Origin: Methylobacterium sp. CB376
Lineage (GTDB): Bacteria; Pseudomonadota; Alphaproteobacteria; Rhizobiales; Beijerinckiaceae
DNA length: 64,000 nt
Assembly: GCF_029714205.1 (NCBI RefSeq)
Contig: NZ_CP121648.1
Location: 1,426,001-1,490,000 of the forward strand
Reading direction: 5' to 3'
The notes below the pieces were generated by a model. It saw only the letters and a program-made list of their open reading frames with translations, had not been told where the DNA came from and made no database searches. The position numbers were made by a program, and so were the translations under genes. Positions 8,546 to 15,435 of this stretch are shown piece by piece. Position 1 is the stretch's first letter; each line of letters opens with the position of its first letter.

Positions 8546-9928
8546 ATGACCACCGGGACCGCCCGCTTCCTGCCCGTCCCCGGATCGCCCCGGCCCGTCG
8601 CCCCGCGCCCCGAGGCGGGGGCCGGTCTGGCGCGGCCGGCCGAGATGACGAATTGGCGGCTCTACGCCGTCGCGGGCTACGCCCTGATCGCGCTGACCTT
8701 CGGGGTCGTCGGCGGCTGGGCCGCGCGGGTCCGGCTGGACCGCGCGGTCATCAGCCCGGGCGTCGTCGTGGCGGAGACGAGCCGCAAGGTGGTCCAGCAT
8801 TTCGAGGGCGGCATGGTCCTCGACGTGCTGGTGAAGGACGGCCAGAGCGTGCGGGAGGGCGACGTCCTCCTGCGCCTCGACCCGCTGCAGTCGCGGGCGA
8901 GCGCCGACCTGTTCCGCACCCAGCTCGACGCCGCCCTGATCCTCGAGGCCCGCCTGCGGGCCGAGCAGGACGGGGCGGCCGACCTCGACCTGCCGCCCGA
9001 CATCGTCGCGCGGCGCCACGAGGCGCCGATCGCCCGGGCGATCGGCGACCAGCGCAGCCAGCTCGCGGAGCGCCGCAAGTCGATGCGCGCCCAGCTCGAC
9101 CTCATCGCGGCGCGCGTGCGGCAGCTGAGGGTCGAGATGGAGGGGCTGGCGGCCGAGAGGGCCTCGGTCGAGGCGCAGGTCCGCTACATCGACGAGGAGC
9201 TCGGCGGCCTGCGCAGCCTGCGCGACAAGAACCTCATCCCGCTCTCGCGGCTCCTGATGATGGAGCGGGAACGCACCCGGCTCCAGGGCGTGATCGGGCG
9301 CTCGGTGGCGGAGACGGCCAAGGCCGAGAACGCCATCGGCGAGGCCGGCATGCAGGTCACCCAGATCGAGCAGAGGCGCCAGGAATCCGTCACCGCCCAG
9401 CTCCTGGAGACCCGCCAGAAGATCTCCGAACTGCGCGAGAAGCTGCTCGTCGCCCAGGACGTGCTGCGGCGGCACGAGGTGCGCGCCCCGCACGGCGGCG
9501 TCATCCAGGGCCTCAAGGTCTACACGATCGGGCAGGTCGTCCGCCCCGGCGAGCCGCTGATGGAGATCGTCCCGACGCGCGACCGGCTGGTGATCAGCGT
9601 GCAGTTCTCGCCGCAGGATCTGGAGGCCGTCCATGCCGGGATGCGGGCCGAGGTCAAGCTGCCCACCTTCCAGACGCGCCGGACCCCGGCGATCTTCGGG
9701 ACGCTCAGGACGGTGTCGCGCGACCGGCTGATCGACGAGGCGACCAAGCAGCCCTACTTCGCCGGGATCGTCGAGATCGACGAGCACGACGTGCCGGGCG
9801 ACGTCAGGGACCGCCTCCTGGCCGGACTTCCCGCGGAGATCGTCCTCTCGGCCGGGGAGCGGACGGCCCTCGACTACATGGTCTCACCCCTCTTCGACGC
9901 GATGGGACGTGCCTTCCATGAGCGCTGA
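8546..9928 (+). CDS. HlyD-family type I secretion membrane-fusion protein
   Basis: The product is 460 residues, with a short cytoplasmic N-terminus, one membrane helix near residues 45-65 (YALIALTFGVVGGWAARV) and the first half of the biotinyl-lipoyl domain (GMVLDVLVKDGQSVREGDVL). A long coiled coil spans about 120-330, the second lipoyl half is APHGGVIQGLKVYTIGQVV (about 318-336), and the C-terminal beta-barrel follows. It spans the periplasm between the ABC protein and a TolC partner. The 3-base gap from the ABC gene marks an operon. PrtE/LapC-like in length. Confidence 0.92.
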   Translation: MTTGTARFLPVPGSPRPVAPRPEAGAGLARPAEMTNWRLYAVAGYALIALTFGVVGGWAARVRLDRAVISPGVVVAETSRKVVQHFEGGMVLDVLVKDGQSVREGDVLLRLDPLQSRASADLFRTQLDAALILEARLRAEQDGAADLDLPPDIVARRHEAPIARAIGDQRSQLAERRKSMRAQLDLIAARVRQLRVEMEGLAAERASVEAQVRYIDEELGGLRSLRDKNLIPLSRLLMMERERTRLQGVIGRSVAETAKAENAIGEAGMQVTQIEQRRQESVTAQLLETRQKISELREKLLVAQDVLRRHEVRAPHGGVIQGLKVYTIGQVVRPGEPLMEIVPTRDRLVISVQFSPQDLEAVHAGMRAEVKLPTFQTRRTPAIFGTLRTVSRDRLIDEATKQPYFAGIVEIDEHDVPGDVRDRLLAGLPAEIVLSAGERTALDYMVSPLFDAMGRAFHER

Positions 9929-13062: not shown

Positions 13063-13281
13063 GTAACTTTCCTTCGCTGTATGCTCCCGGCGGGCGGGGT
13101 CGTCCGCCGGGGAGGCGGCGCGGGAACGGGCGCGGGCGCCGAGGGGCGGCCATGGTTGCAGGCGGATCCCCGCGCGTTCGGGGCTCTGCCCCGCCCGGGA
13201 GGCCCGCGCGGCGTTCGTCCGGCCGTGTTCCGAGACCGCGGGCAAGACCGTGAATGAACTCTCGAAGGCGGGTGTCGCAGC

Positions 13282-14067
13282 GTGTTGCACAGAACATCGA
13301 GACTGGTCCGAACCACGGCGAGCGCGCGGCACGCGCCGACGCCCGTCCTCGCGTGCGCGCCGCTCTCGCATCGGGAGCCGGCGGCCCGGGAGCCCGCGGC
13401 GGCCGATCGCCGGCCGCAGCTCGCGCCCTTCCTGCGCGACCATCTCGGCCGGCAGCTGCGAACCGCCTACGCGGCCTTCGTCAGCGCGCCGCACCCCTCG
13501 GAGGTGCGCGAGGCGATCGCGCGCCTGGAGGCGGCCCTGGCGGGGCAGCCGGCCGTCGTCTCCCGCTTCCGCGACGATCTGCTGGCGGCGCTGCCGGCCT
13601 TGCGCGGCTTCGCCCTGTCGCTGACGGCCAACGTGATCCAGGCCGACGACCTTGTGCAGGAGACGATGCTGCGCGCCTGGCAGAACCAGCACCGCTTCGA
13701 GGTCGGGACGAACCTCAAGGCGTGGCTGTTCACGATCCTGCGCAACCAGTTCTACACGAACGGCCGGCGGCGGCGCCGCGAGGTCGAGGATGCGGACGGC
13801 GCCGCCGCCGCGCAGCTGGTCTCCCTCCCGGCCCAGGAGGACGGTGTCGAGCTGCGCGAGGTCTGGGCGGAGCTCGGCAGGCTGCCGGCCGCGCAGCGCG
13901 AGGCCCTGCTGCTGGTCGCCATGCACGGCATGACCTACGAGGCCGCCGCGGAGCTGATGAACTGCCAGGTCGGGACGGCGAAGAGCCGGGTCAATCGCGC
14001 GCGCGCCGCCCTCGCGCAGGCGCTGGGCTACGAGGCGGGACGGCCCGGTCGCGCGGCCGGGCCGTGA
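13282..14067 (+). CDS. EcfG-like stress sigma factor with a NepR-like N-terminal domain
   Basis: The product is 261 residues from GTG 13282. Residues 94-168 are sigma region 2 (DDLLAALPALRGFALSL, ADDLVQETMLRAWQNQ, LKAWLFTILRNQFYTN, then RRRRREVEDADG), which is the pattern of the EcfG/ECF15 group. Residues 201-245 are region 4 (LPAAQREALLLVAMHGMTY, VGTAKSRVNRARAAL). EcfG proteins are normally about 180 residues. The extra N-terminus holds a stretch at 50-88 (HLGRQLRTAYAAFVSAP then EVREAIARLEAAL) that follows the NepR anti-sigma core (IGxxLRxxY...V...P...LLxxL). A self-inhibiting sigma factor is inferred. No PhyR is present in the window. The next frame overlaps its stop by 4 bases. Confidence 0.85.
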   Translation: MLHRTSRLVRTTASARHAPTPVLACAPLSHREPAAREPAAADRRPQLAPFLRDHLGRQLRTAYAAFVSAPHPSEVREAIARLEAALAGQPAVVSRFRDDLLAALPALRGFALSLTANVIQADDLVQETMLRAWQNQHRFEVGTNLKAWLFTILRNQFYTNGRRRRREVEDADGAAAAQLVSLPAQEDGVELREVWAELGRLPAAQREALLLVAMHGMTYEAAAELMNCQVGTAKSRVNRARAALAQALGYEAGRPGRAAGP

Positions 14068-14671: not shown

Positions 14672-14697
14672 GGAACCTGTGCGCTGAAACGGGCGTT
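14672..14697 (+). promoter_or_regulatory. EcfG-type general stress promoter, GGAAC-N17-CGTT
   Basis: GGAAC at 14672-14676 and CGTT at 14694-14697 are separated by exactly 17 bases, the consensus recognised by EcfG in alphaproteobacteria. The -10 element lies 34 bases before the ATG of the exported protein at 14731. An EcfG-like gene lies immediately upstream on the same strand. Confidence 0.75.
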
Positions 14698-14730: not shown

Positions 14731-14973
14731 ATGCGCACCGTCTTCGTCGCGACCCTGGCGGCCACTGTCCTGGCGGGCCTCTCCGGCTCGGCCATGGCCG
14801 AGGAGACCACCGTGATCCATCGCGACCGGGCCCCGGGCGTCGCCGTCGAGCACCGCGAGGGCGTGGTCGAGCACCGCGAGGTCACCACCGGCAGCGTCGA
14901 TTGCGGCTCCAAGACCGTCCACAAGGAGGACGGTATGGGCAACTCCAAGACCGTCCACAAGGAAGGCTGCTGA
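14731..14973 (+). CDS. Small exported protein behind an EcfG-type promoter
   Basis: The product is 80 residues: a signal peptide (MRTVFVATLAATVLAGLSG, cleaved after SAMA near residue 23), then a charged mature part of about 57 residues with HREGVVEHREV and a duplicated SKTVHKE motif (near 60 and 73), plus two Cys (DCGSKT and the terminal C). GAGGAG precedes the ATG by 8 bases; an overlapping ATG at 14724 is in another frame. The function is unknown. Promoter and export suggest a periplasmic stress protein. Confidence 0.8.
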   Translation: MRTVFVATLAATVLAGLSGSAMAEETTVIHRDRAPGVAVEHREGVVEHREVTTGSVDCGSKTVHKEDGMGNSKTVHKEGC

Positions 14974-15015
14974 TCGCGCCGCGCTGAACTGCCGGATTTG
15001 TCGAGAGGACGCATC

Positions 15016-15435
15016 ATGACCAGCAAACTGCTTCTGGCCGCCGTCGCGGCGGCCACCCTCGGGCTGCCGCTGGCGGCCCAGGCCCAGGGAACCCTGCGCG
15101 GGGCGCAGGAGGGTGCCGAGGCGGGCGCGGCCGCGGCCGGCCCGGTGGGCGGCATCGTCGGCGGGGCGGTGGGGGCCGCGACCGGCACGGTCGGCGGCAT
15201 CCTCGGCGTGGACGACCGTCCGCGCTTCCGCTCCTACGTGCGCGAGCGGCACCTGCCCTCGTACCGGTACAGGGAGGACGTCCGCGTCGGGGCCGTGCTG
15301 CCCTCCTCGGGCGTGACCTACTACGACGTGCCGGCCGAGTACCATGTGCGGCCCGGCTACCGCTACACGGTCGTCAACGACCAGCCGGTCCTGGTGGACC
15401 CGCACACCCACCGGATCGTCGAGGTGATCGAGTAG
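15016..15435 (+). CDS. Exported DUF1236-containing protein
   Basis: The product is 139 residues from ATG 15016, with GAGAGGA upstream. The signal peptide ends at AAQAQ (about residue 24). A Gly/Ala-rich segment follows (GPVGGIVGGAVGAATGTVGG, about 42-62) that looks like a glycine-zipper. Then comes the DUF1236 C-terminus with VRVGAVLPSSGVTYYDVP and GYRYTVVNDQPVLVDP, ending RIVEVIE. DUF1236 proteins are common small envelope proteins in Rhizobiales; their role is unknown. It follows the stress-promoter gene by 42 bases and may be in the same transcript. Confidence 0.88.
   Translation: MTSKLLLAAVAAATLGLPLAAQAQGTLRGAQEGAEAGAAAAGPVGGIVGGAVGAATGTVGGILGVDDRPRFRSYVRERHLPSYRYREDVRVGAVLPSSGVTYYDVPAEYHVRPGYRYTVVNDQPVLVDPHTHRIVEVIE

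Follow-up and report, generated by a model that had tools for sequence, protein, structure and literature searches.

The available part of PMC4814048 (2016) describes EcfG sigma factors of Methylobacterium extorquens that carry a NepR-like N-terminal extension, proposes a fusion as its origin and cites an earlier paper for the extension itself. According to the same text, in vitro binding to NepR is seen solely for EcfG1 lacking its extension; in a two-hybrid assay of six truncated EcfG proteins, EcfG1 binds NepR strongly and EcfG5 weakly. Here, we describe an EcfG-type gene in a window of 64,000 nucleotides from Methylobacterium sp. CB376 (contig NZ_CP121648.1, positions 1,426,001 to 1,490,000), the whole stretch of DNA analyzed. 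An earlier note on this window had read the gene as a NepR–EcfG fusion and was aware of no precedent; both the extension and its proposed origin by an old fusion already appear in the available part of PMC4814048. Our search found no published account of a NepR–EcfG fusion beyond that paper, most subscription journals lying outside it. The arrangement is already known in Methylobacterium, and the window gene is a further member. Profile comparison of sequences confirms that the family of extensions is homologous to NepR, and distantly related sphingomonad-type bacteria seem, from their sequences, to have arrived at this fusion independently.

Relationship of the extension to NepR

The window protein (P0001) carries a NepR-like domain ahead of sigma region 2 in a single open frame, the arrangement that defines the Methylobacterium fusion type. 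Both EcfG-type regions claimed in the earlier note were recovered: residues 93–261 form an EcfG (ECF15) sigma factor with Pfam regions 2 and 4 (Table 1), whose best solved relative is 5uxx_A (E 8.1e-44, top of 20 distinct sequences). An in-frame TGA (13255–13257) lies upstream, and the first start codon is the GTG at 13282. With ATG, GTG and TTG counted and CTG left out, the start-type codons before residue 107 are this GTG, a TTG at 13285 and a GTG at 13504. Third-position G+C is at least 0.9 in blocks from residue 11 to 250, and an identical protein (100%, residues 1–261) is present in Methylobacterium sp. WSM2598.

The NepR-like domain, placed by the earlier note on the same polypeptide, was located at residues 46–87. 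Scanned singly against Pfam and NCBIfam, P0001 looked free of NepR, a reading that was overturned once its relatives were used as profiles. A profile of 29 extensions aligned to a profile of 43 standalone NepR sequences with a probability of 97.7% (E 2.2e-12), a value of which none of 50 column shuffles reached more than 3.5%, and a second pair of alignments (29 versus 27 rows) gave 97.65% (E 2.6e-12). Searched against all PDB sequences, the extension profile retrieved four NepR chains at the top of the list, 5uxx_B (E 3e-5), 4qic_B (E 4.6e-5), 2lfw_B (E 0.021) and 3t0y_B (E 0.034), followed by a designed protein (E 0.043). On a hidden Markov model (HMM) of the 43 standalone NepRs, residues 46–95 of P0001 scored 16.4 bits versus 9.1 for the best of 500 shuffles. 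Extensions from 26 of 31 fused proteins outscored all 500 of their own shuffles, and the other five (L024, L026, L028, L031 and L040) were equaled by some of theirs. All 61 domain rows listed for an HMM grown from standalone NepRs, in a search space of 10,981 frames from 100 loci, some overlapping, fall in standalone NepR or fused EcfG frames.

The Pfam NepR family, PF18557, was matched at E ≤ 1 by 20 of 29 extensions tested alone and at E ≤ 0.1 by 15 of 32 whole proteins (one of the 32 lacks an extension); among the ten paralogues with an extension in the CB376 genome, seven matched at E ≤ 5 and L009 alone exceeded the cut-off. A 27-row NepR profile was also run on the 7.7-Mb genome, where a first look gave 292 candidates, 150 of which were scored. 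It produced 12 matches at E ≤ 0.1, eight of them being the N-terminal part of an EcfG frame; the weakest of the 12 was the window copy (E 0.087), and the paralogues L013 and L015 were absent from them.

AlphaFold2 predicts a helix pair linked by a short turn, as in NepR (Table 1), with a mean predicted local distance difference test score of 78–86 in ten-residue blocks from 51 to 90. A comparison of 31 fused proteins, many of them close relatives, shows L55 in all 31, L59 in 30, either Tyr or Phe at position 63 in all 31, P72 in 27 and a hydrophobic residue at position 75 in all 31. In the alignment to chain 2lfw_B, the counterparts of window residues L59 and Y63 are L32 and Y36. We take 2lfw to be NepR of S. 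melonis Fr1; its chain numbering agrees with residues L32, R33, Y36 and M48 as named in the paper on that protein. Both L32 and Y36 are required for NepR function in S. melonis, according to the available part of PMC6599016.

Fused genes in Methylobacterium and Sphingomonadales

The CB376 genome contains ten EcfG paralogues with the extension (L006–L015), one without it (L016; contig C1, 5902227–5902709, minus strand) and two standalone NepR genes, the first of which adjoins phyR, named from sequence. The window gene (1.44 Mb) is not next to nepR and phyR, which lie at 3.06 Mb of C1. Since ecfG of M. extorquens is likewise away from the phyR locus, as the available part of PMC4814048 has it, this position is no bar to membership in EcfG. 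Elsewhere in C1 (L149, 3.2438–3.2450 Mb, minus strand), an 88-residue frame holds a NepR-like first helix, and a very weak second-helix-like piece lies in another frame of that strand; this is perhaps a third, broken nepR.

Across the genus, an EcfG match was found in 99 of 99 Methylobacterium genomes, and among the matches listed, which are ranked by E-value and hence favor fused copies, each begins at query residue 49 or earlier, some rows containing an internal stop codon. The wider family sample covered 149 genomes of 43 genera; among the matches listed, stop-free rows starting at query residue 21 or earlier outside Methylobacterium came from genera g32 and g36. L139, L140, L141 and L142 look fused, as judged by their translations and not by the NepR HMM. 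L143 (G333) was rejected because its translation is unfused, and a G398 row starting at query residue 26 was left out of this reading.

A second set of fusions occurs in Sphingomonadales. In two metagenome-assembled genomes (L071 and L076), a PhyR gene is followed on the same strand by a NepR–EcfG fusion, and the family to which the genome of L071 belongs has fusions in at least 13 of 199 genomes, counted as listed matches starting at query residue 18 or earlier without an internal stop, all 13 read as translations. A G298 row and a second G112 row, starting at query residues 22 and 19, were left out of the count; rows with internal stops were excluded here and in the wider family sample. Several Sphingopyxis rows (among L085–L100) whose matches seemed to extend into the N-terminus were also rejected, their sigma frames lacking NepR-like sequence and having standalone NepR frames upstream. 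The NepR HMM matches 12 of the 13 fused proteins at E < 1 (9.9 to 29.5 bits); L108 (G240), without such a match, is counted because its N-terminus follows that of L106. PF18557 is matched at E ≤ 0.5 by all seven proteins scanned, three above cut-off, the set comprising six of the 13 fusions and L146, a longer stretch of G103, and so representing seven of the 13 genomes. Twelve of the 13 loci, all but that of G199, were scanned for PhyR, and each of the 12 carries it upstream in the same orientation.

L144 (G250) has no ATG, GTG or TTG from residue 17 up to its LVQET motif (residue 94), and L131 (G112) has none between residues 26 and 119, which makes separate translation of the sigma part unlikely there; several other fusions of this lineage do contain such codons in that stretch. 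In ten genomes searched with the 27-row profile (E ≤ 0.1), the fused frame is the sole NepR match detected in G250, G103, G001 and G002, the last being the genome of L076, outside the 199-genome sample; "sole" means the only one detected, genome completeness not being stated. G185 has one extra match, weak and partial (16 positions in a 444-residue frame), and G199, G163 and G112 have separate NepR matches besides the fused frame. We found no published description of sphingomonad-type fusions in a search outside which most subscription journals lay.

In a tree of the sigma part alone (64 rows), the second-lineage fused proteins sit among sphingomonad EcfGs. A single clade of all 37 fused rows is rejected (approximately unbiased test, p 4.9e-7; a quick tree with some long branches), and a single clade of the Methylobacterium and sister-genus fusions is not (p 0.18); L141 (G370) clusters with unfused genes. 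This pattern may instead reflect an older fusion that was later lost in places, or an extension that spread from gene to gene. Separate fusions in another bacterial order would argue that the arrangement is useful.

Possible action of the extension

We put at about even the chance that the window protein carries a NepR-derived domain from an old fusion that acts as a cap in cis, competing with free NepR. An ancestral NepR–EcfG gene fusion would be the simplest source of this domain in the ten paralogues. The helix pair would most likely fold back onto regions 2 and 4 of the same chain and occupy the surface that free NepR would use, so that the sigma factor would respond less to free NepR and have its activity lowered only partly. 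That EcfG1 and EcfG5 bind NepR without their extensions is consistent with an occupied site in the full-length protein. In the window copy, whose second helix is worn, judging by its residues, the grip would probably be weak. Binding of PhyR by the extension is possible because the Leu and the aromatic residue important in S. melonis NepR are retained.

Several results weigh against such a cap. Scanned whole, P0001 shows no PF18557 match up to E 10 and, with NCBIfam, no NepR match. Residues 40–95 alone score 15.0 bits (E 0.02) under the curated cut-off of 25.7, and the domain is therefore named NepR-like and not a PF18557 member; the match to a NepR profile that the earlier note expected of about these residues stands against shuffles and falls short of Pfam. 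Residue 78 is Ala in the window copy versus Leu in the other 30 of the 31 fused proteins, and mean identity among the ten paralogues is 48% in the NepR-like core versus 64% in the sigma part. The earlier note also envisaged a helix pair docked across regions 2 and 4; the pair itself is predicted, and the predicted template modeling score of 0.47 does not fix its position on the sigma domains. As reported in the available part of PMC4814048, the other four truncated EcfGs show no detectable NepR binding, full-length isoforms of EcfG1 captured NepR in an in vivo pull-down and complement a sextuple mutant, hemagglutinin (HA)-tagged EcfG1 and EcfG2 complement it as well, and EcfG2 is seemingly constitutively active, which together argue that the extension is no strict lock.

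These data also bear on other explanations. The extension may be a leftover of the old fusion without a present regulatory role, retained as the leading part of the sigma protein, which we regard as somewhat unlikely; the whole-protein Pfam scan that misses NepR, the lower identity of the core, the five extensions equaled by their own shuffles and the statement in the available part of PMC4814048 that the role is not known all fit it, but the retention of L55, L59 and the aromatic residue at 63, each absent from one of 31 fused proteins at most, is hardly expected under free drift. Strict self-inhibition, the model of the earlier note, in which the fused domain holds the factor off 1:1 until phosphorylated PhyR (PhyR~P) pulls it away, is doubtful for the window protein. 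It would agree with the NepR homology and with the second lineage, where phyR precedes the fused gene in the same orientation and the fused domain is the sole NepR-profile match in G250, G103, G001 and G002 (the only extra match in G185 being partial), whereas Methylobacterium has free NepR, the window copy has a worn second helix, and the sextuple mutant is complemented by HA-tagged forms of EcfG1 and EcfG2, the second of which seems constitutively active (PMC4814048, available part). A chance amphipathic helix pair unrelated to NepR, to which the weak single-sequence scores and the designed protein close behind the NepR chains (E 0.043 versus 0.034) might point, is highly improbable against a profile-to-profile match that column shuffles do not approach and the four NepR chains that lead the PDB search, two with E values under 1e-4.

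Beyond the cis cap proposed for the window protein, we tentatively suggest that NepR and EcfG were fused more than once, that the sphingomonad fusions would form a single-chain partner switch with PhyR~P lifting a tethered inhibitor instead of capturing a free one, and that the Methylobacterium copies may be looser versions of it. The available part of PMC4814048 leaves the role of the extension open, and apparently separate fusions, some with the sole NepR detected in their genome, make it a sharp question: does partner switching remain possible if the inhibitor is permanently tied to its sigma factor? A fixed 1:1 ratio of the two would alter the tuning of the stress response. Taken alone, the window gene is of modest interest.

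Window features and comparison with known systems

Table 1 Features of the window gene and other elements of the window.
Feature	Position	Strand	Basis or remark
EcfG-type sigma factor CDS (coding sequence) with N-terminal NepR-like domain	13282..14067	+	261 residues, GTG start, stop 14065–14067
NepR-like core, residues 46–87	13417..13542	+	HMM, profile-profile and PDB profile matches
Helix 1, residues 49–68; includes NepR-motif L55, L59, R60, Y63	13426..13485	+	AlphaFold2; conservation
Helix 2, residues 73–87; includes A78	13498..13542	+	AlphaFold2; conservation
GTG of residue 75, in helix 2; the one alternative start (ATG, GTG or TTG) in frame between residues 3 and 106	13504..13506	+	Codon scan
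Sigma region 2, residues 104–166	13591..13779	+	Pfam, E 1.5e-16
Sigma region 4, residues 192–244	13855..14013	+	Pfam, E 7.3e-14
GGAAC-N17-CGTT, EcfG-type promoter consensus	14672..14697	+	Just upstream of small open reading frame 14731–14973
Small DUF1236-domain protein	14998..15435	+	E 2.6e-21
HlyD-type membrane fusion protein	8546..9928	+	

The promoter-like motif GGAAC-N17-CGTT occurs once in the window versus 0.45 matches expected by chance, and a looser pattern occurs four times versus 2.7 expected. Elsewhere in the genome, a 195-residue frame (L148, 221–808, minus strand; C1, about 6.8088 Mb) begins with a weakly NepR-like stretch (PF18557, 15.7 bits, under the cut-off) that is joined to a receiver domain (PF00072, E 8.1e-16). 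Its relatives L158 and L159, from two other Methylobacterium genomes, show a NepR match of 27.2 bits ahead of an apparent receiver. A NepR row at E < 5 was present in six of the nine L148-type loci scanned and in none of the other three; the first 100 residues of the L148 protein, a query that includes the receiver start, match 39 of 59 genomes at E ≤ 1e-4. L148 and its relatives are possible NepR–receiver fusions, and no published title on such a fusion was found, only titles having been compared.

Among described systems, the M. extorquens EcfGs (PMC4814048, available part) are like the window gene in genus, domain order, NepR-like extension, of about 55 residues there, and several paralogues, none of them at the phyR locus. 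Unlike that set, the window copy belongs to the ten fused paralogues of a different genome and combines a weak NepR match with a worn second helix. The NepR–EcfG complex 5uxx offers a structural counterpart, the sigma part resembling its chain A and the extension profile its chain B, but there NepR and EcfG are two separate chains, whereas the window protein has both on one. The complex is presumably from Bartonella quintana. A known extracytoplasmic function (ECF) sigma factor with an inhibitor fused in front has the same layout; here, the inhibitor would be a NepR-type helix pair.
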